Below, piece after piece: positions 624 to 60,303 of a DNA stretch of 64,000 nt (positions within the stretch are counted from its first letter, which is position 1; every line of letters begins with the position of its first letter). The position numbers and the translations under genes are program-made. Source of the DNA: Thermothelomyces thermophilus ATCC 42464 (taxonomy: Eukaryota > Ascomycota > Sordariomycetes > Sordariales > Chaetomiaceae); assembly GCF_000226095.1 (NCBI RefSeq), contig NC_016475.1, positions 3,162,001 through 3,226,000 of the forward strand, in the 5' to 3' direction. The notes under the pieces were generated by a model. It searched no databases. It saw only the letters and a list, made by a program, of their open reading frames with translations, and had not been told where the DNA came from.

Positions 624-3037
624 TCAGATGTCCCAGTTGACGTCGAAAAGGCCAGCAATCCACGTCTCCGACTCGCTCGGCTGAAAGAATGGCATGCCGA
701 TTCCCTCCGCGCTGTTGTCGAGAAAGGCATCTGTCATTGTGGTTGCGCTCGGGCCCGGATTGCGTTGGGCGGGAGCTACCTCTGGTGCCCAGTTGGTCTT
801 CATTGTCCGGACTAGTTTGGCGAACTTGGAGAACGGGTCCTCTTCCACGGTCGGCCCGGTTTCAAGCCGTAGCTGTGCCGAAACTTCGTCGAACCTTATC
901 CCCAGCTGGTCTAGCACGGCAAGCAAGTCGATCCTGTTCCTCACCGCCTCACGATTCCATCCAGGCTCGTTGAGGGTCGAGATCTTGGAAAGCGTGAGAA
1001 GACAGTGGGCCATGCTCCACCAGTACGTGAATGTCATGCCAATGTAGACGTAGCTGGGAATAGAAAAATGCCTATCGAACCAGCCCTGGATAGCACTGAT
1101 GCACCCCTCTATTGCTTCACAACGTTGCATTTCGGACGTGATCCCGCTGAGGTCTGCTTTTGGCTTGTTCATGGCCACATCGTGGATCGCTAGTTCGGCG
1201 TAGAAAATGTGACAGAGGATGGTGTCTTGGCATGGTTAGTCAGAAGAGAAAACAAGTTTTATCTTTTTCTTTGCTCATATCGGAGGAAGAGAGGGGTGGG
1301 GGAAGGGCATACCGTTCTGTTGCAAGTGAGGTGGAAGTTGAGCCTTGATAGCTTGGAGCTGTGTCCGAAGCGAAGACAAGACGTAGCTTGGCGGAATGCC
1401 ATCCGGGGACTGGGAAATATTGCGTGCCAAGCGTTCGACTATGAGCTGAACCTTGACCTGGGCCACTAGTAAATCGTCGCCCTGCCATTCTCTCTGCTCG
1501 GAGAGCTCCTGAAGGCACTCGTCCATGTGGGAAGTCCAGGTCAGCGCTTCCATCCGCTTTATCGTGTATGCCGCCCTACATCCATGTCAGCTGATCAATT
1601 CGTATGGAAAAGGGAACTCTTCACCAACTGAGAAGTGAGGAGAAAGCATGCAAGCACCGCTCGCCGCTCTTCGAGGGTCTTGTCTCGTGGAGACGAGTGA
1701 TGGGTCGGCGCTCTTAAGAGAGCCGAGATAAGAGTCTCGTATGGACCCTTGTTGAGGCCCAGGTCATAAATCAGAGACTTTGCGAGAGACGCCAGGACGG
1801 AAAGTTTTGTCTTATCTCCCTTCAAGTGATAATGGGTCCTGAGTTGTGAAGGGGTTAGCACTGCCCGCCGTATCCTGGTCCACGAAGGATTGGTTCTTAC
1901 CAGCCCAACATAGCAAGGAGCCCAAGTAGGAGATCCATGCTTTTTTCATGCTCAACGACTACCCTCTGAGCGACGAACCTCTCGATCGCTTCAGTCATGA
2001 CGAGCCGCCGATCCACGTTCCTGCAGGTGACGGTCATGATGCTGAACCACAGGAACGGATGCGATTCCCTGAGTTTTTCAGAGGTCAAGGTCGCAGGCAG
2101 GTGCACGAATGGCAGAAATATGAGCATGTACTTGCGGAAAGTCATGAGGCGCTCGGCCGCCTCAGTGGCGTTTGGCTGATAGACACAGGATGGCATGGAC
2201 GGGGGCTCTGCCGAGGCGGCCGGGGGGGCGGGAGCTTGGGGTCCCACGACGTCCCCAGGGAGAGAGCTTAGGCATGATGGTCCTGCATCAACTTTTCCTG
2301 GGCCACGGTCTGGCCGTGTAAGTGGCAGACCAGGGGCAGGGGTGGGATGGGAGGAACCCTGCTCCGACTGGCTGGTGGTGGTTGAGTGGGTGCTCAAGGT
2401 TGGCGTACTCGTGTCGATGTTTGTCCCTGTGTTGCTCAGAGATGGCGTCTTGACCGCTGGGGCGGCCTGATGACGGAGCAGCGTGACAAGGTCTTCGATC
2501 TTGGCCTCAAGCTGGGCAGTGCGTGACATATGGGCCCGCTTGCCATTGCGTTTCCTGGCCGTAACTGAGGGGACACACTCCTTGCTCAGCCGGTAGCATC
2601 TATCTTTTATCAGCGCAGTCTCAATGACGGCTATCAGGGGCACGCCAGAGCTTGTTCGGATGAGGATGGGCACGGGCCGGATGACAGCCGGAAGCGGATT
2701 TCGGATCCGAGCCGGAGCCGGGCCATATAGTTCACGTCTTGACGGGGCTAGGACAGGATAGGCAGCATGGAGACTGCAGCCCGGCAGATTCAACCCCAAC
2801 GCTAAACCAAACCGGAAGAAGCCCCCAATGCCGTGTTACTTGCTGCGGAACGGAATTGGAATGGGAGGATAGGCAATCCTGGGCAAATGTCATGCTGGGT
2901 ACACCAGATTCATACCTTTCACAACCGGCCCCATTCGACCGGTATATACACCTGCATTTTGCACGAGCACAGTTTGTACATGCTCTCCCGTAAGGCGCTG
3001 GGGTGCCATTCGATGCTCCACTGCCGTCTGGATTCAT
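624..3037 (-). CDS. Zn2Cys6 transcription factor, Leu3/PrtT-like
   Basis: Likely nuclear regulator of 631 residues from five exons: 3037-2916, 2599-1901, 1838-1629, 1575-1313 and 1225-624. The first junction falls inside the DNA-binding domain and rebuilds a complete binuclear cluster, C20-X2-C23-X6-C30-X8-C39-X2-C42-X6-C49, followed by a basic linker (ARKRNGKR) and a short coiled segment (QLEAKIEDLVTLLRHQ). Residues of about 70-150 are Ser/Thr/Pro-rich. The second half reads like the fungal middle homology region: LLLGLLAMLGW joins THYHLKG across intron 2, then SLIYDLGLNKG, as in the Leu3/PrtT/War1 type of C6 regulators. Those control branched-chain amino acid genes, secreted proteases or weak-acid stress, and the target here cannot be told. 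The donor of intron 3 (GTTGGT) is weak, so that junction is the least sure. The 316-bp first intron is long for this window. Confidence 0.85.
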
Positions 3038-5489: not shown

Positions 5490-8164
<2,675 letters not shown>

Positions 8165-21414: not shown

Positions 21415-21516
21415 ATGTCGGCCTACCAGCCTCGCTGCTGCAAGTGCGGGTCTATCCTCGTCATCAGCCCGTCGTGCAGCCACTGCCGGCACGGTCAATG
21501 CGTTGACTGTGTCTAA
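21415..21516 (+). CDS. 33-residue cysteine-rich zinc-ribbon microprotein
   Basis: A short ORF with good start context (CCCACAATG) after a pyrimidine-rich leader. It has seven cysteines in 33 residues: C8, C9, C11, C21, C24, C29 and C32, giving C-X2-C (8,11), C-X2-C (21,24) and C-X2-C (29,32), with H23 and H26 nearby. The spacing suits a small zinc ribbon or knuckle. A similar cysteine spacing occurs in small domains found in longer hypothetical proteins of filamentous fungi, so this may be a free-standing version, the last exon of an undetected gene, or chance. No intron is needed. Function unknown. Confidence 0.45.
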   Translation: MSAYQPRCCKCGSILVISPSCSHCRHGQCVDCV

Positions 21517-28063: not shown

Positions 28064-30156
28064 TTAGTGACCGGAATCCTCACTATCCCCGGCCCCCGCG
28101 GCACAACATTTGTTCGTGTCGTCGAAATAGTGATAAACCTCTGGGGCGTGTGTATCATTTCCGTAGACGCTGCCGCCGTATGTGAAGTAGTTCTGGCTCA
28201 CAGACAACGGAATTGTGACGATGTCCTCGGCGTCTCCGACCACCCAGATCGTTTCCATGCCTGAGAACACAGCCTCATGTCAGCAAATGCCATCCGGCAA
28301 AGCACAAGCTACGCAAATGAGACATCAGGTTAATATACTCACCCATGATCATGTGTGCCAGAATGTGACAGTGCACCATCCACACGCCAGGATTGTTCAT
28401 CTTCATCCTCCACGCCCTCCACCCGGCCGGCTCGCCGGGCGCCACCTTGCCTTCGCCGTACCGGTACACCATTGTCGTGTCCCGCTTGATTGGCCGGTAT
28501 CCCAAGCTCGCCAGCTTGGCGTTATTGGCCTCGGGATCGTACTTGCCGGGCCCACTGCCCACATCGTAGAAGTGCTGACCGTGGGCGTGGAAGGGGTGCG
28601 TCTCGACGATGCCGCTGGCACCGCTGTAGTGCGATCCCGTGTTCTGGATCACAATCTCGAGCACCTCGTCTTTCTTCGCGGGGAACAGCTTCGTTGCCGG
28701 ATCCCAGCCGTAGTTGGTCAGCGCCGCGGCATAGTCCGGCATGGCGGCCTCCCCGCGCTCGTATATGTCGACTAGCACCGGCTTGTCGCGTGACATGTCA
28801 GTCCAGGTCATGTGCGCGAGCTTCCAGACAAGGCGACCGGTTGCAGGGTCGATCTTTTGCTCGGCTTCGAGAATGACGCGGCGGGTGACCTCTTCGGCCG
28901 TGGGAGACAAGCTGCTCGAAGGATGAAGTGGCTGGAAAGTGTATTCCAGCCAGTTGTTGACTTCGGCCGGGAGAGTGAGCGCCGGAGTCGTGGGGGCGGC
29001 GGGGACCGGAGTGCCGAGATTATACCGTAGGACGCCATAGCCGCGGTAGGGATCGGGACGATCGCGGGTTTCAAATTGCAGGAAATAGGTGGTCTTGTCG
29101 CCGTTGCATCTGAGCTCCTCGGCCGTCTTGGTGCGGAGAAGAACGTCGAAACGTTGACCTCCGCCGAGCTGGATATGGTCAACCGTTACCGGCGCATTGT
29201 ACTCGCTGCCGTCGACCTGAACAATAGTGAGATCGTTGTGATCCTCGAAACCCATCGTCAAAAGGGACAGGCCTGTGGCACCAATGAAGCGGAGCCGGTA
29301 AGTCTTGCCCGGCTCGACATCGATGACCGGGAGAGTGCAGTCAGTTGGAGGTTCGATCTGATCATCGCCACGTATCCCATCCCAGGAGTTGGAGGTGCCA
29401 TCACCCGCGCGGAAATTTGAGAAACGGTGGCTTCCAAAGAAGCCGCTGGCTTCGCCTGGTCGGCCCTGGACGGCTGCTTGGTTCGGCGAGACGCCCCTGC
29501 CGTTCAGTAAGATACCCCGTGTCTCGCCGGTCCACGTGAACTGCGTTGACGTCAGGCCTTGAATCATTTCGAGATCGCTCTTCTGGAAGTGGTCTTGGAA
29601 TAGCAGTATTCGCTCGTCGTCGTAGTGGTACGGTGATGATCCACAGTCCTCCACGATCAAGGGCCCGGTGCAGCTCAGCGCCTGCATGCCCACGTGTGAA
29701 TGGTAGAAGTATGTCCCTGCGTCTTCTGGTTCGGTCAGAATTTCGTAGTCGAAGAAGTGCCCGGGCGGTATGGGCCATTGCGTTGCGGATGGTGTCCCGT
29801 CGGAGAACGGGGCGAATCGCTGAGAAAGGCCGTGCCAATGCTGCGAGTCTCATCAGTGCCCGTGCATTCCATGAGTACAGAAGCGCTGCTCTACTCACCA
29901 TGCTAAGGTTCCGGTCATTCATGTCATTGTAGACACGGATCCAAGTCCTAGCGCCAGGAAGCAAGTGTATGGCAGGCCCCGGTGAGGTCCCGTTGACGAC
30001 AACGTCTTCCCGGTTCTCGCAAGCCGAGGGCACCTGGGCAACGGATACCCTGAGAATATGGTCCGGGATGAACTGTTCATCATGGACAAGAGTTCCGGCA
30101 TACACAGCAACGGACAGCCATTTGGCAAGCAGAATAGATAGTTTCGAAAGTAACAT
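28064..30156 (-). CDS. Ascorbate-oxidase-like multicopper oxidase, secreted
   Basis: A 650-residue blue copper oxidase from three exons: 30156-29899, 29840-28343 and 28260-28064. It should oxidise a phenolic, ascorbate-like or metal substrate and reduce oxygen to water. The start gives a hydrophobic signal (LSILLAKWLSVAVYAG), followed by the ascorbate-oxidase-type VNGTSPGPAI and WIRVYNDMNDRNLSM. All four copper motifs are present: HWHG (87-90), HSH (133-135), HPFHAHGQHF (501-510) and HCHILAH (576-582), followed by MIMGM with the likely axial Met. Two motifs (HWHG and the last) abut introns. The domain order is cupredoxin 1, 2, 3. The substrate cannot be told from sequence. The PXB gene diverges from it, and a copper metallothionein lies about 5 kb away. 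Confidence 0.92.
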
Positions 30157-31502
30157 GTTTGCTTTGAAATGAGAAATGGTAATGTCTGAGAGTTGGTAGC
30201 GTCGGATGTGAGTGTCGGTGTGGGAATAGCAAGGGATTATCGTGGAAGGGCAGTGTTTAAAACGGGATTTTGAACCGGAGAACATGTTCCCCCATCTGGG
30301 AAGGAGACGCCCTTGACCGGGTACAGGAGATGGCTGTAAGCCAGGGAACGTAATTAGATGGCATAATATGAACTGAGGAAGGAGACGGCTGGGATCTCTG
30401 GGGAGTTCGACTTCGGCTTTCGCGGTGTGCATGCTCCAAACTGGAAATGGCGCCCCACGACAGACTTGGCTGCTTGGTTGTACCCGTATCGAAGTGCCGC
30501 AGAGAGCACACACTTGTCTGGTGCTATTAGCGAGAAGTCGAGGTCGTCATCAGTCCCGGATTTTTTGGGCTCCATGGGTGGCTCGTGGTAGCGATCAACA
30601 TCAGGAATGGGACGCCTCACAGGTTAAAGAGTGTTATTGACAGTAGAGCCATCTCAACTGACAATCCTGAAGTTTGCTCGAGGCAGTTGCTCAAGTCTCG
30701 CAGAGAGCCATTACCTCGGTGCAGCAGTGAATCTCCACCCCATCTGGTTTGCCTTTTAGACACATTGAATCCTCCAAGCCGACCGAAGCCAAAGGAACAA
30801 TCCCTTACGGATCTGCGAGAACTGAAGACACAACGGCGCTGTTGGGTGCCACCAGTGGAGCAATATAAGCTGCACGTGTTGTCTGCGCATGCAGTGCTCT
30901 TGCTCTGAGCTGCAAACATGCCGGTTTCCGCTTTTGGTGACTAATGTGATTGATGGCAGTTGCAGGTCCCTGCATCACCGTTCAAATCAATCGTTGCACG
31001 CGCATCTGATGTGGGTAATGGAATGCAACCATGGTCGCAGCGCGGGCTGGTTATATTATACCTTTAACATTGTTTGCCACCTCTGAATGGAAGGTTAGTG
31101 ACCGCAGGACAATGGTGGGTTGGTTGTCTACTGCGTATCGCCCATGAACGAGTGTTTTGGGTTAGGGTTGTATGTATGTACCTCTGTGTCCACTTTCAAC
31201 GTCACCGACTCTCGTGCAACCACAGCCACGCTCAGAGCCATGCCATCAGCAGCCCCTTCATTCGGTCAAGACAACAAAGCAACTTTGCCAAGATGGCCTG
31301 GAGACATAGTGCATCCTATAATTTATAGCGACTATGCGCATCTTTTAATTAGTGTTTCCTGCGATCAAGAAATTCCCTGCTCGCCTCCGCCGTGCACAAG
31401 AAGAATCGTTCGGGTCGCTCCGTCCACGGCTGCCTCCAGGGCGCTGTTGCGGAGCAGGCTGCAGCAGCCTGTTGGGCGCTGACACGCCACGCATGTATCG
31501 TC
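30157..31502. other. intergenic, 1.3 kb, divergent promoter region
   Basis: Between the multicopper oxidase (minus) and the PXB gene (plus). Several short frames but none gene-like. A small upstream exon for the PXB gene cannot be excluded. Confidence 0.45.
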
Positions 31503-34022
31503 ATGGAGGGACAAATAGCAAGCAGCACTCTCGAACATGCGTCTCAATGTCCTTCTGCGACCCCCCTGACAGCAGCCCAACTCCATGCCCTTCTCGACAT
31601 TCTTACCCATCACCAGACCTATGCAGAGGTGGAAAGTTTCAAAGACCCTGGTACCATCTCCGAATATGGATACCCGTTTACCCGCCATCACCAGCAGCCC
31701 AGCAGCGGCCCGTCATACGCAAGGGACTCAGTATCAACTCCACTGCTTGCCGGCGTGCTCCGAAGCATCGTTCTCCCTCTCCCAGGTATTCGGAACCTTC
31801 CTCCAGAGTTTTGGCATGTTCAATTCCAGAGCATCTTGGAAAAGCTTGCCGAAGCAGAGCTCTCGGAATCCTACGATAAAGGTGTACTGGGTACGAGGAA
31901 GACCCTAGCCACCGCAGCCTCGGCTCTTCACGAGGCCGTGTCGAGGGGTATTCTTGGGGGCGTCTCAGATGACGCAGGTCGAAACTTTTACGGGGAATAT
32001 GACAGGTCCAAAGCTACTGATCTTGTCCGGGCATGGGAGGATGGTGTGCGAGAGCTCGTTTACGGAGATTTGATTGAGGAACTGTTCACCTGCGCGGCAG
32101 AGAAGCAGAGCCTTGAAGAGCACTCTGCAGGAGTTCGGGCAGCGGCGGACTATGTCATAATCCAGTAAGATTCTGATCCGTTGATTCCTCGCAGTGACCA
32201 GCGCTGACAAAATCGCAGCCTGGCAACGTTGATACACCACATCTTCATCGTGTCACCAGAGGGCCCATATCTACTGAAGCTCTTGGAGAATGTGCATAGA
32301 TTGTTGCCGTACTCGATGGTCAAGCACACGCTCCGCATCGGCAATGCAGCAACCATGCTCAATGGCATGATGCGTCTGCTCCTGGCCAAGGTGGGCGTCG
32401 GCTCGATCTTGAATTGGGTCGGGCTGACCCAGAATGCCGACGACGGCATGAACCTTCTTCAAAGGTATGAATCTGCTTAATCGTCCGGGCCTATGTCTAA
32501 CCCTCACAGAATCATTTGGCTTGTCCTCACATGGGATGCTTCTGACTTCCGCAAGTCTGCCGAGGCCATAGAAAAGGCAAAGGGTTGCTCGAAAGAGCAG
32601 CTTGCTGCAATCAGGGAATACCTCAACAAATCAAGGGCCGAACACGACGAAATTCGCAAAGTCAGCGCTCAGAGAAAACGGTCCGTGGTGGAGATAATCC
32701 TGGAGCGCTCAAACCCAGAGCTCCTAGCCTCCCTTACAGAGACTCAGCAATCACAGTGTTCCGAGTATCTTACGGCGTTGCTCGAAGCCCGAGATCGCGA
32801 TGAGATTATCAACACCCTGTGTCGTCAGAGTTCTGATTTCTTTACCCAGGCCATCAAAGACGCCGTGGCAAGCTTTGAGCCCATGATCAGAGCCATCCAT
32901 ATGAAGGTTGATCTCCATGAGCACGTATCCGCAGGAGAGGCGTTCTTAACCGAATTCATCAACATCAGCCGAACAAAGAAGAACACCTCGGGCTTTCTAG
33001 GCTCTTTGACGCCCACCAAAGCAGAGACATCGGAGACCCACATTGCTTCGGTGGAAGACTACGTCCTTCTCCTCAGAAACAACCGTCACCTTCTCTACAA
33101 CTGGCTGCACCAACTTGCAAGCCAATGTCCAGAGGTCTGTGATGAGTTTCGCGCTTGGGCTAAGGAAACCATCAAGGTGTTTCGACAACCTGTCAACCCC
33201 GAATACCCCAGGACAGCTCTCAATACAGAGGATGACAATCGCCCAGGGGCCGCCGGTGCTTTAAGCGGGCACCTTCAGCATCTCTTTGCAACCCTCCCCG
33301 CTTCCACGCGATCGCGTATCCTTCCCGCCATCGACGCACACGCGGCTTACCTTTCGGCTCTGGAAGATCTCTCTCTAAAACGCATGCAACGTATCCTAGA
33401 TAACACGGTTAGCATTAACAACACGGCTATCACCACCAACTCCGCCGCCGCCACAACACCTTCCGCTCCATCAAACCCTTCCTCAACTGCTACAGCGCCA
33501 GCAGCCCCCACATCCTACCTTATTCCTTCCCGCTGGTCGCGGCCAGGGCGCTCCACCCCGCGCTCGCCCAGCCCAAACTCGGCTTCCTTGACGTCTCCAC
33601 CTAACGGCACCAACGCCAGCGAGGCGGAAAGCAAGAAGAGGTCCTTCTCCGGTCCGGGGATGTACCTTGCCCGCTGGCAGCAACTCCTGGACGACACGGT
33701 CATTGGCCCGGCTAGCTCTAAGATTTCTGGAGGCACGGGGCTGAGGTCGGGGAGGGATGTCAAAGGGGTACTGGCGAGAGGCAAGACCGGATCTGGCGGC
33801 GATGGAACAAAAGCCGATTCGGATTCAGGGGGTGTGAGCTGGGAGTTGAGTTTGCTGGGGAAGATAGGAAAGGAGGGGATGGGGGTGGAAGAGGAGCCGA
33901 GGGCGGTTGATGTCCGATGCGTGGTCGAGGCATTGGGGGAAGGGTTTAAAGCGTTGGTCCGAAGCTTGGTCAAGGGACGGGATATGAATGGTGCTCGAAC
34001 AATTCTTTGCCCCCCTCTGTAG
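31503..34022 (+). CDS. PXB/DUF3818 protein (PX-associated)
   Basis: An 806-residue protein from three exons: 31503-32164, 32219-32464 and 32510-34022. The N-terminus matches the PX-associated PXB domain (PLTAAQLHALLDILTHH, AEVESFKDPGTISEYGYPF, LPLPGIRNLPPEFW). The DUF3818 region follows (LLKLLENVHRLLPYSMVKH, RIGNAATMLNGMMRLLLA), continuing through long helices past residue 500. The C-terminal third has an Asn/Thr/Ala/Pro-rich linker and a helical tail. Fungal relatives often also contain a PX phosphoinositide-binding domain and are tied to membrane traffic; I see no complete PX domain here. The start at 31503 puts the PXB domain about 20 residues in, as usual for the family; the frame is open further upstream. 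Confidence 0.8.
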
Positions 34023-35068
34023 ATGCTGAGTCTTCCCTAGTGGCGGGAGGGATCAAGAGCAGAAGGCAGGGGCCCCGTTTGCCCTTTCCACCCCTCCCGG
34101 CCCTCCTCCCTACCCCGGCCAGTTTTCGAGGCACGCAATCCGGATCAAGCTTTCGTTGAGCGTGAGAGACCTCTGGATTGGGTTTTCCTGCATCATTCGG
34201 GGCGCCAATCACTACCTAGGAAGTTAGCATAATTAAATATTAACGGCACTCTCAAATACTTCTACACCGATGGTTGTTCTCCCTTGGAGAGATCTGGTAA
34301 GTCGAGGCATGTATTGAGTTTCCCCCTGAAAAAAAGGTCACATCCCATCTCGTTAGTGGATATTATCAACCGGCCCTGTCGAATAATATGCCTATTAAGG
34401 ACTATTTGATGCGGCATTTGCTGCGGATGTTTATGCGCTACAAAATTAACCAACCGCTCCATGGGTGCGAGTCAGAAGCGGATACGGGGTTTTGCGGGGG
34501 AATGCCCTGCCTTGACGTGCGGATGTTGATGTCTTTCTAGAGAGGGATGATGGGTTGAGATGCGAAGGGTTTGACGATGAGCATGAAATACGCATGTTGG
34601 ACATGGTCGCCACGCGGCAACAAGTAGCACTAGTTGATGGTCGATTCAACAGGCTAGCAAATAATTGTTACTATTATACCGTTTCTTGTAGAGGTTGAAG
34701 AGGGCATGTTTAGGAGGGTAAGGATGGGCGTTGTGCCTTGTATTCCTTCCCTTGAGGAGCATTAATGACAAGAGTTACTATCACTGCAACAAGTGAACTT
34801 GACAAACAAGACGATATTCATCAATTTCGAGAATAACTAGTGACTCCTAGCCATCGGTATTCGTTCGTGACTTTTCCTCAGACGGAATTCATGAACTTCA
34901 TGCAATCAATGCACCGAATCTCCACCCAGATCAGAAACCGGTCTTCTCAATTCAGGCTTGCTTCCATGTGATTGCTTCCTCGAGAGTCCCTCGGCTGCTG
35001 CAAACCTGAGTAGAGACATCGGCTTGGTAGATGAATATGCGACCTAGTTCCTCAGAGGAGAGAGCAGT
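34023..35068. other. convergent intergenic region, 1 kb
   Basis: Between the PXB gene and the metallothionein, which end toward each other. The sequence is more A+T-rich after 34200. No supported frame, RNA gene or repeat. Confidence 0.45.
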
Positions 35069-35235
35069 TTATTTGCAGCCAGAGCAAGAGCCTGTATGTC
35101 CATTGACGAGTTAGTATCGCTCGATCAAGTATCTTCGAACGGGATGAGTTGTTTGGGGGGGCGGGGGAGGGGGAACGAACAGGAGCTGCCGCAGTTGCAG
35201 GCAGAGGCAGAACCATTGCAGTCGCAACCAGCCAT
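35069..35235 (-). CDS. Copper metallothionein, 25 residues, two exons
   Basis: Exon 1 is 35235-35181 and exon 2 is only 23 bp, 35091-35069; the 89-bp intron has donor GTTCGT, a good branch site (GATACTAAC, 35110-35118) and acceptor ACATACAG. The joined protein starts MAGCDCNG and ends CNCGSSCSCSGCK. Its seven cysteines (4, 6, 13, 15, 19, 21, 24) sit in C-X-C pairs almost exactly as in the Neurospora crassa copper metallothionein, whose gene also has one intron of about this size. It should bind Cu(I) in one cluster in the cytosol and protect against excess copper. Without splicing, the first exon would read on into a Pro-rich tail, so the intron decides the call. Confidence 0.9.
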
Positions 35236-35386
35236 CTTGAAGTGGTTTGGTATAATAAGTGATTGATGTTCTTGAGTGTTTGTGTGGTCCGTGGAGCCGC
35301 GAAACAGTCTTCGATTTGTGCAAGTTGATGCGAGTTGGGAATGGAGGGTCCAGGTTCCGCCGGAAAGGAGGAGAAATGTGGGCTTA

Positions 35387-35396
35387 CTTATAGACC
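35387..35396 (-). promoter_or_regulatory. TATA box of the metallothionein gene
   Basis: On the minus strand GGTCTATAAG lies about 155 bp before the start codon, followed by a C-rich start region and an A/C-rich leader ending TTCAAG before ATG. This suits a strong, inducible gene. I found no sequence fitting the yeast Ace1 copper-response consensus exactly. Confidence 0.5.
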
Positions 35397-37986
35397 AGGG
35401 CCAGTAACCAGCTGGGGCGCTACTGTGTTGGTGCCTTCCTGTTAATGCGCGGTTTGTGCGGAGTTGCGCGTTTTGTGCCTTCCTGAAGAATTGCGGATCG
35501 GCTTGGGTGTCCACCCATCGCCCGCGCCAAAAAGAGTTCGGGACACTGAGCCAGCTCGAGTGCGAGGCGCCGCAGGATAGTGCCTGCCAAGGAAGACTAC
35601 CCCCAAAGCGTAATCCGCATGTTGATTCCTTTGCCACCGTGGTGTGTCTGCAGGCTGCCCGGAAGTAAGGTTGGCGGATCGTTCTTGCTTTTGGTTGTGA
35701 ATGAGACCCACAAAACAGATGGCAGCAGCGATTTGGCTCGCTGCGTGGACCTCGTCCCACGCCTGCGCCATGTCAGCTCCTGCCTGCGAGATTTGTGCGC
35801 GAAATGTGCCGAGTCAATGCAACAGCTTTTCGTCCAGTTCGCCAATGATCTCCTCGCCTGGGTCTTCACAAGAACAGCACTGCTTTATACCTCCCTGAGC
35901 GCCGTCATGGGCCGGAACCAAGCAGAAACAACCAGATTCCTCTCAACTTGCTGACCTCAGCGCAGCGACCTTGCCCATCTCCTAATGGTCGTCGACCTTA
36001 TCACGACGATTACTCCCGGATCGGAGGCTGACCGACATGCCCTTCCCATACCTAACGTTGTTTAAGAATGTATACGCATATCTCGTATGCCCTTGAAGCA
36101 GCAGCCCCCCAGGCAACAGCACCAACCAACAGAGCGCCATCAACTCGGCGAGCTCTGGCTGTAATTATCAGGAAAACCGAACCGAGCTGGTTCAGTCTCC
36201 CCTCCCATTCCAGGAGGAATCAATGATTAGTAATTGGATATACCAACAACTTACTGACATTTCGCTTGAACAAAACCTCGAAATCGGTCTATAATGCCAC
36301 TAAGATCGATCCAATCATTGTGAAGCAAGTCGGCCAGAGGAGGGCCAGCTCAACAGCCATATCATCTAGAAACCGCCACCCACAGCTCCTACAACATTCG
36401 AATACCTGGCATGCCCACCTGTCCTCCACGAAGTTATAGCGCCTTATTTTAAAGCGTGTTGTAAGTTGTTTGTCATGGTTTCCTCGCCCCCACCATGAGA
36501 TAATCGCGACTGGGATTAGTGAAGGCAATAGAGAATAGAACCTACATGATGCCACTCTTCGAATGTTACCTTCTTCACAAGGCATCAGGTCGCATCTTTT
36601 CGGGTGAGCCCAGGAACGCTGAAACGAACTGCTTCCCGCTCATCCCCTGTATAGTCCATAATATTGTTGAGCTTGGGAAAAGAGAGACCCTAAACCCAAG
36701 AGAGTGTGACCACCTGTTCATGGACTTGAGTTTTCATCAAAGCAGACCGCTTATTATAATTAGGTATCTTGAATAATCATACAAGTTCCCATGATCATTC
36801 TCTGCTCATTGCGAGATTGCACCTTTGTGTCATTGTCTGACAAGCTTCAGTGCTTTCCCGACAACGGACTACGACGAACCGAGCACCAGCGCTCCACTCC
36901 AGCTCTCGTGGCCCGTTTGTGATTTGTGTAACGGAGGTCTCGGCGCAAGTAGATTGCTATTGCCATCATGGCCAGCTCCTCCAGCCCTCTCAACACACTC
37001 CCCATGTTGCTGCCGATACCCCAACGGTCGGTTCTGTTAAGCTTCTCTCGGACTTCTGTGTGAATAGCGTTGCCAATTTTCAGAACGACGAAGGTCACTA
37101 CGAGCTTAGCCAAGCCAGATATCTGACCAAACCCCGGAGCCATATATCTGTCCTCTCAGTCTTTCATGCATTGTGCTGTCGGGCTGATGGTAAGGTTTAC
37201 TTGTAATACATACGGATGTAAACTGACCGGCACTATTAGTACATCTGTTAATTACAAATTAGCTATGGCAGTATTGCCGTGGGTTACTGAATGAACGGCT
37301 GTGGGTTGAGGCCGATTTTTGCGGACTTCTCTATTCTTTTCCATGACTCAGGCGTACAACTCTTGGTTGGCAGAATAAATGCCTCCGCGCATAGGCACCA
37401 ATTCTAGAAATATGTAGTTAGCCTTCAATAGGATTGGCCATTACCGCATCTTAACTTCATTCTTACCACCGTTAGTCACTACCGTGCGAAGTCTGATTCT
37501 GATCTCGAACCCAAGAGCTCAACCTAGCAGACCAAACATGTCAACGTCTAGGTCCCGATAGCCAAGTTCAAAACATGGTCTAACTGGTCAAGGGCCTAAT
37601 TTCCAGTTGCTGTGGCAGAGTTGAGGTTGATGAAACGGAGGATCAAGTGTGTTGCCAGATATATACATGGGTGATGGGTTGAAGTTCTGCTGCCCTAACC
37701 GAATAAGGAAGGTGAACGTGACATTACATCCCCAGATTAACATGCCGCTGTTTGCATACACTACTTCGTAGTCTTTACACCTCGGAGTGTTTTCTGTATT
37801 GAGGCCGCTGCTGCCTTCGCGACGAAGATCGCCCAACCCTAGCGAATCCGCCGAATGCATGGATACACGTTCGGTTATCAATAAGCCAGCGACTTAACAC
37901 AGGCTAAAATGCACACTAGCCCGAGCAAGCGTAGTGTTGTGGGATCACAAGAACCAACACAAAAAACCCCATCTCATCTCCACTAC

Positions 37987-50215: not shown

Positions 50216-52353
50216 ATGTCGACTCCCCGCATGCAGCGCGGTGACCCCCTTGACCCGTCCATCCCCTCGCGTGACGATGGCTCCACGGTCCTCTCTGGAG
50301 CTCCAGCTCCGACATACGCCTCATTCTCCCCCGCGACTCTCAGCTCGACCGCCCCGAGTGCCACATCGGCGGCCAAGAGGAGTACCATCCTAGTACACCA
50401 GAAGTCGCCCCTGCTGCTGGCGACACCACCACAGATCACGCGCGCGCTCGCATATAGCCACCCATTTCTGCTGCCGCTGAATAGGCTGGTCGGCCTGCTG
50501 ACATGGACGACGAACGATCCGTGGGAGAGCTTCCTGCTGTTGATGGCATTCTGGGCAACAGTGCTATACGGTGATGTCGTGGTGCGCCTGGCGGGTCCGT
50601 TGGTCCTGGTGCTGGTTCTGATCGCGGGCATGTACGGACGGCGCTTCAGTCCGTTGAGCAGCAGCGGATGGAGCGAGCCGGGACTTGGCACCGCGGACGG
50701 CACAGCCGTTGCCACCGATGCGAAGAGTACCAAGGCTGCCCGAAGGACTAAGAATCTGTCGGTCGACGGGCTGGTGGAGAAGAACGGGAGAGGAGGGAAT
50801 GGGAACGCGGGAGGCGGAGGGAAAGGCGGCCACACGAGGAGCCAATCTTCGACATCGGAGGCCACAAACACTCGGCACCAGAAGACGCTGGATGAGATTG
50901 TCGAGACCCTGCGGGAGTTTACAGCGAGGTGCAATATCCTGCTCGAGCCACTGCTGGAGCTGACCGACTTCCTCAGCACGCAGCGGACCCCGACGTCAGC
51001 AACCACTCGGCCGGCGCTCACGATGCTGTTTGTTCGCATCCTGCTCTGCATCCCGTTCTGGATCCTCCTCACACTGCCTCCTCTCCGCGTCATCACCACC
51101 CGCCGCGTCATCCTCATTCTGGGTACCGTCCTTCTGACATGGCACTCCCGGGTCGCTCGAGTGACCCGTGTCATTCTCTGGCGCAGCGCCACTCTCCGAC
51201 GAGCCCTGAGCCTCGTCACCGGCCTGCAATTTGAGGGTACAACGAAGCCCTCATCGGCCGCTTCCGCCGCAGGAGGCGCCGGGACAGCGAAGAGCAGCGC
51301 CGCCTCGTCTACCAAGTCCAAATCCCCATCCCGCTCGAGCGGCACCACCATGACGGGGCACGAGTCCGAACTTACCAAGGCCCTCCGTCGCGCCCGCAGT
51401 GGCCGTGGAACGGGCGTGCGCTTCACTTTCATCATTTACGAGAATCAGCGGCGGTGGGTTGGCCTGGGCTGGACGACCAGTCTGTTTGCCTACGAGAGGC
51501 CCGCGTGGACCGATGAGCATAACAATGCCGTACCTCCCAAAGCGGAGTTTGAGCTCCCAGAGGTAGAGGACGGGAGTAACATGCGCTGGCAGTGGGCAGA
51601 GGGATCCAGGTGGAGGGTCGACGGTGTGCCTGATGAGGCGGTCGCAACAGGTGCTGACGATGAATCTGAGTGGGATTATGATGGTCCCGGCGGGCGGATG
51701 GGTTGGGTTTATTACGATAACAAGGTCTGTTTCCAATTCGCCCTGGAAAAAAAAAAGGGGGGGGGTTCCTCCCCATTTGGATATAGAGGCTGACTGTTCC
51801 GCAGTGGCAAAACGGCCGGAGAGGCCAGGACGGTTGGGGTCGCTGGACCCGACGGAGGAAGTGGTACCGTGATGCCGAACTGGTTGAAGTAGACGAGGAG
51901 GCTGAAAGACAGCAAGCCTCGGAAAGCACCTCAGAACAACGCAAAACCCCAGGCCCGGCACCCGCAGCTCCAAGACCGCCAGCGGGCCTCAACCCAACCC
52001 CCGCCGTACCAACGGTCGACTTGACCCCGAGCTCTCCAGACGCGTCCATGTCCCCCCCATCCTCAATCCAGGATCGGCAACGCCCGGCCACTTCCGGGGG
52101 AGGAGATCGAGAAGAAGAGCACGACTCGGCCTCGCTCATGTCTACATCGAGCAGGTCAGCGCCCTTCACGCTACGACGCCGCCTCACCGACACGTCACAC
52201 CGCAGCACCCGCAGCAGAAGGGCGAGTGTTGCTGCGAGCAGCGAGGACGACTCGGCCATGTTGGGAACCCAGACTAGGATGGCCGTGCAGGAGGCTGGCG
52301 CGGAGGCCGGGAGTTGGGGGGTTGGAGACGAGGTTAGGATGGGGTTGGAGTAG
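50216..52353 (+). CDS. Peroxisomal membrane peroxin, Pex24/Pex28-32 family with dysferlin motifs
   Basis: A 685-residue protein from two exons, 50216-51724 and 51805-52353. These peroxins sit in the peroxisome membrane, often at ER contacts, and control peroxisome size and number. Seen in order: a Ser/Thr-rich N-terminus; hydrophobic spans (SFLLLMAFWATVLYGDVVV, LVLVLVLIAGMYG); a helical region (LDEIVETLREFTARCNILLE); a second membrane block (MLFVRILLCIPFWILLTLPP, VILILGTVLLTW); then a DysF-type domain with FTFIIYENQRRWVGLGWTT, MRWQWAEGSRWRVDG and, across the intron, GWVYYDNKWQNGRRGQDGWG and WTRRRKWYRDAELVE. The tail is disordered and ends in a basic Arg/Ser stretch. The start at 50216 is chosen because the frame upstream is unlike coding sequence. 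The intron has A10G9. Confidence 0.9.
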
Positions 52354-52662
52354 ACGCTGAACAAGTTGCTTGCGGCAAGTACGTGATGGACACAAGGTTG
52401 TTACTAACTTGCTGGAGGGAAAACAGGTAGGAAAGATGATGGCGGTGGTGGTGTATTCTCATTGGCTATAAGAGGGCTTTCGGTTAGGGATTGCCAGGGT
52501 CATCGCATTATTTGGGCAGCGCTCTTTGATGGATCAAACTTGGGCTAAGGAATGATTACGAGGTCAGGGTTTATATATATGGTTGTGTGGAGATAACGGA
52601 CTCAGAAGGGCGTGGGATAGCAGGGTAGTGCTTCAGCCTGTCGTTAAACCGGAATGTGAGCT
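52354..52662. other. spacer left of the LTR element
   Basis: About 310 bp of 3' flank of the peroxin gene. Its last five bases, GAGCT, are the left copy of the element's target-site duplication. Confidence 0.6.
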
Positions 52663-52873
52663 TGTCGGAAGCTGTGGAGCTTCCAAGCGTATTAGCCACG
52701 CGTTTGCCACAGCTGTATGAGGCTGTTCAACGCTTTGGCCAGCTCCTTTGTCTATAAATATCAGTCGTTTTGTCTCCTTTATAGATAGTTCAACAAGGCA
52801 CTCTTTTCCTTCGTATAGCCACCTACTACAGACTGCTTTTAACGCTCCTAGAAGCTTATTACTACGTTCGGCA
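52663..52873 (+). repeat. left LTR of the copia element
   Basis: 211 bp beginning TGTC and ending GGCA, with a TATA-like TCTATAAATAT in its middle that probably served as the element's promoter. It differs from the right LTR at about 24 positions, nearly all transitions, which points to RIP. Confidence 0.93.
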
Positions 52874-55800
52874 GTTATAAGCCTAGTGCCTTGATTACTC
52901 CTCTACCGACGTATCTTTAATATTAATAGTAGCTTCTTCTATTATAAACTCTCTTATCTTGCTTTAATACGCTTTTGACAATGTATCTATTATATCTGAG
53001 ATCTTAGTTAATACTTTTATATACCTTATAAGGCCTAGTTCTTAGAACTTATAGTATATTAAACTATAGTTATAGGCTAAATTTACTAGTATATAGGGAT
53101 TTATTAACCTTAATAGTAACTATAAGCTAGATTTAGAAGTTCTATAGTACCTAATTTATAAGTAAGCTAGAGATAACCTTATCTTAGCTTTTTAAGAGTA
53201 ACTTTTAGAGAGATTATTACTTTTAATATCTATAGATTTAATACCTTCTAATATAGCTATTATAGCTAAATTTATATAATTATAAGACTCCTTTTATAAA
53301 GATATCGTATATATTATAGATGTTAGTAAGCGGATAAGATAGCTATAATACTAGCTAATATATATTATAGATCCTAAACTTTATAAAGCTATAAAAGCGT
53401 ATAAGAAGAAAGATATTAACCTTATTAGGGAGATTATCTAGGCGTTTCGCTCTATACTTATACTATCTATTATAATGCTTCATATAATAGTTACTATATA
53501 ATATATAGCTAGTCTTAATATAGCTAAGTGTTTAGGAGTTAATCTATAGTATTAGATTTGTAACTTTAATATTGCCTTCTAGTAAGCTATCTAATATAAT
53601 ATCCTAGAAGTATAGGGTATATAAGGACTTTATACCTTTCTTAATATTATCGTTATATATATCTTACTAACCTAGGTAGTAAATAAGAGGATGGAAATCA
53701 AGCTTACTAATAGTATAAGATAGCTACTTTTAGAGCTTAATACCCTTATTATAATAGCTAAGATCCTAATTAATAATAATATATAACCTAGAGTCTCTTA
53801 GAAGTATAGAATCTTCTTAATAACTTATATATTAACACTTTCTATGGTATAAAAGAGCGGTAAGAAGAGAGGTGGAGACTTATACGCTTAGTAATATAAT
53901 ATAAGATATCCCTATAAGCGTCTAAGACATTTATAGGATCTAGTAGATTATTACATGCTTAAGTAAGCTATCTATAGTAACGAGTAACGCTTATACCTTT
54001 CTAACAAGGAATATAAGAGGATTTACTAGAAGCTTAATAAGCTAAAGTAGGCTAGATTAAAAAATTAACTTATTACTAAGTAGGGGGAGCTATCTTATTC
54101 TAGGTAGTTAGGGGTAGGATACCCTAGTTCCTTTAATACGTTAATTATTAGCCCTTAACTACTTGGCAAGCTCTCGACTTATTATAGGGCATTTAATATA
54201 GTTACTCTATAGCGTTATCCTCTTTCGAAAAGCACTTTACTAGACTTATATAGTATAACCTACTTAGTTAATAACAAGAAGTTCCTTTTACCTAAGATAT
54301 TTATTAAGGTAGATAATCTTAAGTTTATTAAAGTAGGTACGATAACCTTTCCTATTAGTAGGAGGGGCACTTAGGTAATCGAGAACATTTTAGATAGACT
54401 ATATAGACTATATACTAAGAACCTAACGCTTAAAGATATTACTATCGTTAAAGGATTCTATATTAATATTATCTTGGAAGCTCTATTGCTTAAGGTAAGC
54501 GCTTAGTACTATAGCTTAGATTACTTACTATGTTTTAGAATACTAGAAAACAATATTATACTTCGTAAGTTAGAACGTAAGTATAATCTTACCTTCCTTA
54601 AATATAAACCACTTTCCTACTACCTAAGCTTCTTAGACTATATCTTAATTAGTAAAGTGGGTATTATGAACGTTTATATATCCTTATAGAATATATTTGC
54701 TATATATAATAGAAGGTCCTAGACGCGAGCGTTACCTACTATAAGAGAGAATACCAAGGATCTTTAGTACTTAAGAGCTAGCTACCTTAGACTAGAAGCG
54801 TTAAAAGCGCTTATTAATAACGTTAGAAACGTCTATATTAAGGAGATAGTACGTATTAAGTGTAAGAGCTATACTTATACTTATATAAGCAAGGTTATCT
54901 CTAGAAAAATACTACCTAAGTAGAAGTCTATACACCTGTTCTAGCAAGTAGCCTAGGATCTATTTAACTATCCTAAAGCGATTAATAGATTATAATAACT
55001 ACTTATAATTGTTAATAAATATAGTAGGAAGCTCTTCCCTTTCCTCTTAACAATAAAGTCACTAGACTAGATTATAGGAGTTATCCAGAATTTCAAGAGC
55101 TAGGTAAAACGCTAATATAGGCTCACTATCTATAAGATTAAGTAGGATAATAATACTACGATAATTAGTTTAATAGGACATATACTAATATACTACTAGA
55201 CTTAGGCTATAGAAAGCGGTATTGATCTTAAACTCTTATCTTTATATACCTACAAGCGTAATAGACTAGTAAAGCAAGTAAGGTAAGAGCTAATCTTACA
55301 CTTAATTAAGATGCTTAATAGTGTAAATCTCCCTATAAAGCTCTAGTTAGAAAGCATATAAGTAGCCGTATACTTATATATAATAAGCCTAAGCTATACT
55401 TACTTGTTTAAAACTCCTAATAAGGTACTCTATAACTGGTTTAAATAGTATTTTCGCTAGTACGAACCTAGCTTAATAATTATATTAACTAGTAACTTAT
55501 ACCTAGATTTGAGTAGTATCTTTATATATAAATACTAGGTATATATCCTCCATAAGAATAGGGAAGCTAAGTAGTATATAAAGGACTTTAAGGTACTATT
55601 ATATAGGCTAATAGGGTATCTTATAAGAAATTACGTATTTAATATCTATTATATTTAGATACCTAAGCTCGATAAGGTTATTATAATTTATAACGTTTAC
55701 TTTGATAAGAAGACTTTCTACTATCTAGGTAAAGAGTAGCTAATAAAGCCATTACTAGTAGTAGCAAGCTAGGAAGTTAATTAATTCGATCTTAGTAAAG

Positions 55801-58800
55801 ATTCCTAGGATACTAACTTTCTCTAGGAAGTATTATAATAGACCTGGTAACTAGTAAAAGACTCTATTATAGTAGCTTAGCTACCTCTATTATAAGAAAG
55901 TCCGGTAGTAGATTAACCTCTCTAACAAGGTTAAGACTCAAGGGTAAGGGAGCTCTCCAATATATAGCCTATAAGCGAGTAATTAGTTCTAGAGACTCTT
56001 ATAATAGAGACGTAAGTAATAGACGAACTTACTAAATAGATAGAGAGCTTTAAAAGACTTTTAACCCCTAAATATATGCCTAAGCCCTCGGTGACTTGCC
56101 CTATACCGGCTAGTAAAGGGGATATCTACTAGGAAGTAGGAGGGTTTAAATTAGGGCCTTCCTAATCACTAGCTAGCTAACTAGACGCTAGGAAAAGTAG
56201 GGGAGCTATTAAATCTAATAGAGAAATACCTTCTATAAAAGAATCTAGTATATATAATAAGTAGATAGAAGAGCTAGGAGCTAGGGATAGTACTACTAAT
56301 ATATCGTACCTAGCTAGGCTAGAGGAGTAAAGCGTTAAGCAAAGTCTAGATTAGCTAATATATCCTCTAGAAGGTAGAAGTAAAGGAAAAGCTACTTAAT
56401 AACCTCCTATAAGGAAAGGCAAAAGTAAGAGGAGGGCTTATAAGCCTAGAGACCCTATCTAGTTAAGCGAAAGGCTATAAAATGAAGAGAGGGTCAATTA
56501 CTATTACTCCTTTATCTATATAATAAAGAAACTCTAGTAATAGTTCTATAAGACTTATCTACTTAATTAATAAAAAGCTTACCTAGAGGACTAGAGTATA
56601 AGAACAATATATATAGTATTTACTACTACTATATAATGGAAGGATATTATATACCTTAGAGTAGCTCTAAATAAGTCACATTAGTATATTAACAATCTTA
56701 CTTACGTTCCTACTAATTAGCAAGACCTATATAACTACCTATTAGGATAATAGTTTAAAGATATAGCTTGTAAGAAGATATATAACTTAGAGAGTAAGGG
56801 AATATAGAAGATCGTACTATACAAGTAGGTAAAAGCACGACCTATCTTATTAGAATAGGTCTTTACGTATAAGTTTAATAAGGACGGTTTTCTAGAGAAG
56901 TATAAGGCGAAGATCTATATATAAGGAGATCTATGAGATATTAGCTTAGTAGAAAGTACGTATATAGCTACTCTAGTAGTATAGTCGTTCTATATAATAA
57001 TAGCGATCGTTATATACTTTGACTTAGAAGTTAAGTAGTTCGATATAGTATAAGCGTTCCTTAACGCTAAATAACCTAAAGACAATTCTATCATCTATAA
57101 ATTACTAGAAGGATTTAAGTAGCTAAGGAAATATATAGAGTTATAAAGAGCTCTATATAGCTTAAGAGACTTATTACTCTTATAGTATAAGGAGTTCTAT
57201 AAAACGCTATTAGATCCAGGTATAGAACTATTAGGTAAAGAGAAGTGCCTCTTCTTAAGCTATAATAAACGAGTTATCCTAATCTTCTATATTAATGACT
57301 TCTTAGTCTTCTTCTATAAAAGTAATGCTATAGTAGCTAAGTAAGTAATAGAAGGAATTAAAGCTCGATATAATGTCTATAAGCAAGGTAATGTCGCTTA
57401 GTTCCTTGGCATTAGGGTAATCATCGAGACCGACCTATATATAAGATATAGTTAGTCTATAACTAATATATTAGAAAGGTAGTAAGAAGATATGGGCTAG
57501 ACGTACCTAGCGTATACAAGCTAACTCCCTTAAGCTATAAAGAACTTAAGAAGTTTAAAGGGAGCGCTACTAGTATATGGATCAAAGAGTATTAAAAGCT
57601 CGTTAGATTAATCCTATATTATATAGTTATACTATATCTAGATATTATATATACCTATTTAGTACTCTCTTAATACCTAACTAACCCAGGATTAGACTAC
57701 TTATTAGAGGTATAGCAAGTAGTAAAATATCTATTTAGGAGCTCTTACCTATTAATCTAATATAGAGGTAAGCAAGCATTAAAAAGTCTAACGCTTATAA
57801 TTACTAGGGACACTTTGTATATAAATAACCTAGATATATAGTATTTGTTATAGGGATATATCCTTTTCTTATTTAAAGGTTCTATTATATAGAAGGCGTT
57901 GTACTAAGATATTATTATAACGTTAAGTATTAAAGTAGAACTTCTAACGCTTTCCTTTATAGTAAGAGAGGCTATAGCACTTAAAAGGCTATTTATAGAT
58001 ATTAATCTTAAGCTTAGAGAACCCTAGAATATCTATTATAATAATTAGTGAATAATAAGACTAGTAATGGCTAAGAACGAATATATTAATACTTACCTAT
58101 AGTATATAGATATCTATAATATATAGTTATACTAAGAAGCGGTAAAAGGAACGTTTAAAGCTATATATCCACTAATTAGTTAGATACTAGTAGATAGGCT
58201 TACTAAATGACTTAGCTAATAAGCCTTTAAGCGCTAAAAGGCCTTCCTTAATCTTTAAAATATTAGTTATAAGCTTATATAACTAAAGGATAGAAAATAA
58301 GTCAAATTCGCTAAATAAAATATTACCTAATACTTCCTATCTATTACTATTAGCCGTTGCTAGGATTAATAGCCTTGCCCTTACCTTTATCCTAGCTAGG
58401 TAATAACATAGCACCTAATATATCATTAGATACGCTAATACGAGTATTATAAGCCTCCTTAATCTTACCTAACTAGTAGAAGATGTCGTATATAGAGTAG
58501 GTAATCTTTATAAAACGTATAAACTTAGCCTTATCGAGCTTATACTTCTCTATATCGTCTATACCAGCGCGTTTTAGATTACTCCGAAGAACTATATATA
58601 ACTTCTTAAGATCTTATATATAATTATTAGCAATTTGCCTATATATTAGAGGTAAAGGTTTAAGATCTAGAGACTTATAGAAGCCTTAGCTCTATCTAAT
58701 AGAGCTTTTATTAAATCCTTTACTAATCTAATATAAGAAGTAAGACTACTATTATAGTTAATATAAATATTATAAAAGCTATTAGATATATAGGTAATTA

Positions 58801-59432
58801 ATATATATATCCTTATACTTATAAGAACTATAGGTATAATAATGGTAATAAGAGCTAGTACTAGAATAATCGCGATATTTACTAAAAGAATATCTTACTA
58901 GAGCTAACTATATATATATTTTATAAGGTACCTTATAAAGCTTATTAGCCATAATATTACTATATTTAGTTAGCTTAAATAATCTTAATATAACTAGTAA
59001 AGTACTAGAAAACTATAAAACTAATAATAAAATTAATTAAATAGAGATAATAAGAATACTTATAGTCTAGAAGCTTTAATATACTTATACTTTTAAGGTA
59101 TTATAAAAGTGAAAGTTAACTTACTAGTAATAATAGTATTTATAATAGGTATACCTAACAAGTTATCCATTAATTTAAATATAGGAAGTATTATCCTATT
59201 ATTATTATTATAATTAAAACTAGTAATACTATTACTACTATAGTTATAATAGCTATATTTAATCTATAGCTTTAAAGGAATCGCTCTACTATACTTAACT
59301 CTTTTAGACTTCTAAATATAAAAGGTAGGCCCCTAAAGGAGCTATTAAGGTAAGAGCGACAAAGGATATAACACTAAGAACAATATTACCACAAAGCGTA
59401 GTTAAACAACTACCGCATTTAACTAGGGGGTA

Positions 59433-59643
59433 TGTCAGAAGCTATAGAGCTTCTAAACGTATTAGCCACACGTTTGCCACAGCTATATAAGGCTATTTAA
59501 CGCTTTGGCCAGCTCCTTTGTCTATAAATATTAGTCGATTTGTCTCCTTTGTAGATAGTTTAACAAGGCACTCTTTTCCTTCGTACGGCCACCTACTGTA
59601 GACTGCTTTCAACGCTCCCGGAAGCTCATCACTGCGTTCGGCA
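59433..59643 (+). repeat. right LTR of the copia element
   Basis: 211 bp, same ends as the left LTR, preceded by a short purine tract (AGGGGG). About 89 percent identical to the left copy by hand alignment, with no length change. Confidence 0.93.
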
Positions 59644-59997
59644 GAGCTCTACACATTAACGAGGGCAGTTTGTCGTGGCAGCGGAACATGAATCTGGACA
59701 TCAACTTCTTGTTGGGAGATGCTTTGGCCAAGCCTACCAGGCCTGGTCACTTGGGGGAAAGGACCTACTAAGACACAACTTGCATGTAGGCATGATATGT
59801 TTACAAGTCAAAGCCAAGACTCACTATCAATGGCTCCCCATAACAATTATGGGTACAAATATAGCGTTGAATGAAGGAAAAGGACAATCTCCGACCATGT
59901 CACTCCTACCGACGAAGGTGGTATCCTATCATAGGCTCAATGGTCCCCTCTGGATGCAGGGGTTGGTGAGTGGTGGGGGAGAGGAGGGTCTAATTAT
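59644..59997. other. spacer right of the LTR element
   Basis: Starts with the right copy of the GAGCT duplication. The composition returns at once to that of the rest of the genome. No supported frame. Confidence 0.5.
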
Positions 59998-60303
59998 TCA
60001 CCCCCGAGAGAATGGGCATTCTCGGTGTTGTCTGACATCCGCCGAAGCTTGGCCCAGGCTCTCCTCGATCCTGGCCAGCGTGGCTCGGTGGCCGCGCAGG
60101 AACCGACGGGCGTCGAACCGCGAGGTGCGGGAATCCTCCATGTATATCCCCCACCGGACCGCCCTCTCGACCAGAGAGACGGCCAGGTCGACCAGGATGG
60201 AGTTGCCGTGCAGCTCGCGGGTCGAGAGCAGCCGGAGGGCGTCGTCCAGCACCTCCTGGAAGCCGACCTGCAACTCCATCTTTTCCTCTAGTTCTGGCGA
60301 CAT
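59998..60303 (-). CDS. Small helical protein, function unknown
   Basis: A 101-residue single-exon frame with coding-like composition. It starts MSPELEEKMELQVGFQEVLD and contains ILVDLAVSLVERAVRWGIYM and ARRFLRGHRATLARIEESL, so it is mostly alpha-helical and carries Arg and Glu-rich surfaces. No cysteine pattern, signal peptide or membrane span. No family recognised. The overlapping frame in another register is Pro/Arg-rich and looks like a shadow. It lies about 350 bp from the copia element. Confidence 0.55.
   Translation of the reverse strand: MSPELEEKMELQVGFQEVLDDALRLLSTRELHGNSILVDLAVSLVERAVRWGIYMEDSRTSRFDARRFLRGHRATLARIEESLGQASADVRQHRECPFSRG

Follow-up and report, generated by a model that had tools for sequence, protein, structure and literature searches.

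A predicted two-exon gene for a Neurospora-type copper metallothionein with a 23-bp terminal coding exon in Thermothelomyces thermophila

The metallothionein gene of Neurospora crassa is reportedly the subject of a paper of 1985. Its product, the N. crassa copper metallothionein, is listed in PMC4755600 under MT family 8 (fungal 1), and proteins of this kind have been described since 1980 (Lerch 1980, cited in PMC4755600). The short seven-cysteine pattern given there is CXC, CXC, CXC, C, in which the last five cysteines are spaced CXC-X3-CXC-X2-C. The founding pair, the N. crassa and Agaricus proteins, are described as Cu-thioneins and share the spacing X2-CXC-X5-CXC-X3-CXC-X2-C-X3, which the available text of PMC4755600 gives as the pattern of these two proteins and not as a family criterion. 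The long Cu-thioneins of Tremella mesenterica and Cryptococcus neoformans, the latter described with Cu5-(7-Cys) clusters, are likewise built of seven-cysteine units that can be aligned to the Neurospora protein (PMC4755600). However, they consist of repeated units and measure 122 to 257 residues, and the Tremella gene has 10 exons (PMC4755600), whereas the T. thermophila gene described here would encode a single unit in two exons. A further described gene, PaMt1 of Podospora anserina, is called copper inducible (PMC2654708).

The T. thermophila gene lies in a stretch of 64,000 nucleotides, here called the window. An initial annotation had proposed a complete two-exon gene of 25 residues with a 23-bp terminal exon, and its coordinates and lengths proved exact on recomputation (Table 1). 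It had also described the branch site and both splice sites as visible, and we located all three: the GTTCGT donor, which departs from GTAAGT, the TACTAAC element, which fits the branch-site consensus, and the ATACAG acceptor. Exon 1 opens with ATG GCT GGT TGC GAC TGC, closes with AGC TCC T, and codes for MAGCDCNGSASACNCGSS, with its last base opening the next cysteine codon. Exon 2 finishes that codon and adds SCSGCK and a TAA stop. Joined on the minus strand, the two coding parts yield MAGCDCNGSASACNCGSSCSCSGCK, whose 25 residues include seven cysteines and three C-X-C motifs. The start codon is the first Met of a stop-to-stop frame at 35125-35772. If the intron were kept, this frame would stay open for 17 proline-rich codons into the intron and stop after 36 residues with five cysteines, so that the claimed conversion of a proline-rich read-through into a seven-cysteine C-X-C protein by splicing holds as a prediction. 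The two-exon model on the minus strand at 35235-35069 is thus supported, with splicing itself carried over from relatives.

Table 1. Features of the predicted metallothionein gene and its upstream region (window coordinates)
Feature	Position	Strand	Details
Exon 1, coding part	35181..35235	-	55 bp; ATG to phase-1 splice
Intron	35092..35180	-	89 bp; GTTCGT...TACTAAC...ATACAG; in-frame stop if retained
Probable branch site TACTAAC	35110..35116	-	18 nt before exon 2
Exon 2, coding part	35069..35091	-	23 bp; GC-TCT-TGC-TCT-GGC-TGC-AAA-TAA
Putative core promoter and leader	35236..35392	-	TATAAG at 35392-35387, 157 bp before ATG
Possible copper-response region	35236..36435	-	15 sense-strand GCTG cores in 1.2 kb

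The joined protein had been suggested as a query against fungal metallothioneins, and this comparison leads to Neurospora. A PDB search returned 1t2y, labeled 'Metallothionein', as the sole match up to E 10, at an E-value of 0.92 that is weak taken alone and not significant; Pfam gave no match up to E 10. The aligned letters of 1t2y are those of the N. crassa metallothionein as printed in PMC4755600. A good E-value is hardly within reach of a protein this short and biased, and we therefore compared the alignment score with those of residue shuffles. The score was 93, against a shuffle mean of 47 and maximum of 82, so that none of 5000 shuffles scored as high, and 16 of the 24 aligned residues are identical. 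Both proteins (N. crassa: P02807; 1t2y) have seven cysteines arranged as three C-X-C motifs and a final Cys, are rich in Gly and Ser, are without an aromatic residue, and carry Lys at the C-terminus. After removal of Met, the cysteines occupy positions 3, 5, 12, 14, 18, 20, and 23 in the T. thermophila protein and 3, 5, 11, 13, 17, 19, and 22 in the N. crassa protein. A layout nearly identical to that of Neurospora had been claimed, and the seven cysteines and three C-X-C motifs are indeed kept. However, the spacer between the first and second C-X-C is X6 instead of X5, and the chain ends in C-K instead of C-G-S-K.

The T. thermophila protein therefore shows the short seven-cysteine pattern with its CXC-X3-CXC-X2-C end, while the exact founding-member spacing is absent through the X6 first spacer and an X1 tail, with no Cys lost. 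Since that spacing is not matched to the letter, we propose that the protein is homologous to the Neurospora metallothionein and assign it no formal family number. The gene model, its splice signals, and the proposed kinship with the Neurospora copper metallothionein are supported, and their strongest independent support comes from a primer used on genomic DNA of P. anserina, a fellow member of the Sordariales.

The reverse primer for PaMt1, used on P. anserina genomic DNA, has a complement that reads CTATAG and then, past the deduced junction, GCTCCTGCTCTGGATGCAAA, followed by a His tag (PMC2654708). The RT-PCR primer for the same gene runs through the stop codon, and its complement starts with TCCTGC (PMC2654708), which places its end 2 nt inside the deduced junction, as expected of a cDNA primer. 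Together, the primers point to an acceptor ending in TAG and a 23-bp terminal exon, as in T. thermophila, although for Podospora the junction is deduced from primers rather than from an annotated gene, and the genomic primer also forms an open frame if no intron is assumed (...IGSCSGCK). The last 23 coding bases are nearly identical in the two fungi: 21 of 23 agree with the P. anserina primers, and both differences are synonymous third-position changes, an outcome produced by 83 of the 1890 possible double substitutions in the seven codons (4.4%). The two genes would thus have in common the terminal exon, its acceptor, its phase, and the C-terminal SCSGCK. The N-termini differ, with MGGSCN in PaMT1, as given by its primer, and MAGCDC in T. 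thermophila.

We consider it very probable that the locus is a spliced, two-exon, probably single-copy gene for a Neurospora-type copper metallothionein, which would serve as a Cu(I) buffer and would probably be induced by a copper-fist factor. By analogy with its relatives, removal of the 89-bp intron would produce the seven-cysteine protein, which would wrap a small Cu(I) cluster held by thiolates and buffer surplus cytosolic copper, while a copper-fist transcription factor would probably induce the gene. All four points, namely splicing, the binding of Cu(I), induction by copper, and a role in buffering, are carried over from these relatives.

The upstream region was searched for signs of such regulation. 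GCTG is the core of copper-fist sites, and the 1.2 kb upstream of the start codon holds 15 copies on the sense strand, compared with 5.9 in the motif counts and with a window mean of 6.3 per 1.2 kb and strand. At least 15 cores were found in 0.8% of 1256 overlapping window-strand samples. The opposite-strand CAGC shows no excess over the same 1.2 kb (7 versus 7.6). Longer motifs gave smaller counts: T-H-N-N-GCTG-D occurs 3 times versus 0.54 (reverse complement, 1 versus 0.88), TC-N2-6-GCTG occurs 3 times versus 1.8 (reverse complement, 4 versus 2.25), and TTTGCTC and its complement are absent from the 1.2 kb. The one-strand GCTG excess, which was tested after the fact, is only a lead on copper regulation. 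A Pfam search of the same genome gave two copper-fist matches that pass the cut-off. One copper-fist protein, encoded by the frame 1474-3036 of locus L003 (G000:C4:2602268 +), carries the motif CxCx3CxCx2Cx2H twice in its C-terminal part, as CGCGEGCQCVGCLAH and CPCGDSCDCPGCLVH, and the five cysteines of each are spaced like those in the C-terminal half of the metallothionein. In Mac1/Cuf1-type factors, cysteine motifs of this kind act as Cu(I) sensors.

A genuine metallothionein with the same gene model could instead serve mainly another metal or be constitutive rather than copper induced. A sequence does not reveal metal preference with certainty, and the RT-PCR product of the Tremella metallothionein is given as unchanged in copper-enriched culture (PMC4755600). 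Yet the description of both founding proteins as Cu-thioneins (PMC4755600) and that of PaMt1 as copper inducible (PMC2654708) argue against this alternative, which we regard as unlikely. It overlaps the preferred explanation, so the probabilities that we attach to the readings do not sum to one.

It is very unlikely that the intron is often retained, with the 36-residue, five-cysteine, proline-rich reading as the main product and the spliced form minor or regulated by copper. The read-through frame that continues into the intron before its stop and the donor other than GTAAGT would fit retention. However, the branch site and acceptor are both present, the exon junction is apparently common to Podospora with solely synonymous change in exon 2, and nothing in the sequences used here shows the proline-rich tail to be conserved. 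A bolder version, in which splicing would act as a copper-dependent switch between a seven-cysteine buffer and a five-cysteine proline-rich peptide and the intron would have been kept in Podospora and Thermothelomyces for this purpose, strikes us as extremely unlikely.

We also counted donors by collecting, in the window and 20 sampled stretches (264 kb), the GTNNGT hexamers that have a branch site and an acceptor downstream. GTTCGT ranked first, with 10 occurrences versus 2.9, and the method overall found 55 versus 39.4. We rejected GTTCGT as a favored donor: its 10 occurrences include a look-alike repeat (loci L019 and L026), overlapping hits (L026 and L029), and the metallothionein intron itself. 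Because the excess is inflated in these ways and the method found little overall, it lends no support to the gene model. The look-alike stretches, near 7763 on the minus strand in L019 and near 7980 on the plus strand in L026, are apparently copies of a dispersed repeat, in which GTTCGT...CTAAC...TAG mimics an intron and spoils simple donor counts.

Chance was assessed at the level of the gene model and of the window. With the metallothionein ATG as the start and a stop reached within 34951-35235, seven cysteines result from only 1 of 27 GT-AG pairings; the three next-best pairings give six cysteines each and lose the cysteine spacing. A scan for mini-genes on both strands, allowing one or two exons, 18-40 amino acids, and at least six cysteines, returned three candidates in the window, two of which start at the metallothionein ATG (the model and an alternative donor). 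The third, a frame at 21415 unrelated to the gene, has seven cysteines and only one C-X-C. Among 30 randomized windows (first-order Markov), which gave eight candidates in all, none combined seven cysteines with three C-X-C motifs. The leader adds a TATA-like box, and no other ATG occurs in the 157 bp between TATAAG and the start codon. That the locus contains no gene, and a cysteine-coding stretch just happens to adjoin splice-like signals unrelated to it, is extremely unlikely: the 25 codons are short, the PDB E-value is poor, and Pfam is silent, but neither the randomized windows nor the shuffles equal the observed result, the Podospora terminal exon agrees at nearly every base, and a TATA-like box and an ATG-free leader are in place.

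The unrelated short frame, MSAYQPRCCKCGSILVISPSCSHCRHGQCVDCV (window 21415-21513, plus strand), has some of its seven cysteines in CxxC pairs and gave no Pfam match up to E 1.

When the 25-residue protein was used to search the genome in six frames, it hit the metallothionein locus alone, through exon 1. The N. crassa protein as the query matched nothing in the genome, the metallothionein locus itself included. The gene is probably single copy, although such a search is insensitive to diverged copies. On one side and on the opposite strand lie a PX-associated frame (31353-32165) and a DUF3818 frame (32481-34019); on the other side, the next listed frame of at least 170 codons, apart from the metallothionein's own, begins at 38120. 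Of 20 other frames of the window that were scanned, 5 gave Pfam matches (COX14, thiolase, PXB, DUF3818, and Pex24p), and none of these suggests a copper gene cluster.

The window also contains, at 28278-29849 on the minus strand and roughly 5 kb away from the metallothionein gene, the main coding frame of TtLMCO1, a laccase-like multicopper oxidase. This frame aligns without a mismatch from residue 4 to 503 with PDB 7zn6, 'Laccase-like multicopper oxidase 1', the crystallized TtLMCO1 of T. thermophila (PMC10306062), which makes it very probable that the window comes from this species. TtLMCO1 is the single other copper protein seen in the window, and its proximity to the metallothionein gene is probably a coincidence. 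Farther along, positions 52001-60000 form an AT-rich block, possibly a repeat-rich, RIP-mutated island, whose two 4-kb steps have GC contents of 34% and 31%, compared with 49-61% in the other steps.

A literature search on metallothionein in this fungus found no paper on the gene, as judged from titles and the starts of abstracts. We conclude with high confidence that the gene is real but ordinary and easily overlooked, and that its product is related to the Neurospora copper metallothionein, adding one member to a protein kind that is already known. The case shows that sequence alone can suffice to recover a gene of 25 residues whose terminal coding exon measures 23 bp. The heat-loving T. thermophila is in industrial use. 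The fungus, also known as Myceliophthora thermophila, makes many copper enzymes, among them laccases and LPMOs (PMC4061905). For an industrial fungus with so many copper enzymes, the predicted copper buffer and a promoter that is possibly inducible by copper are therefore of practical use.
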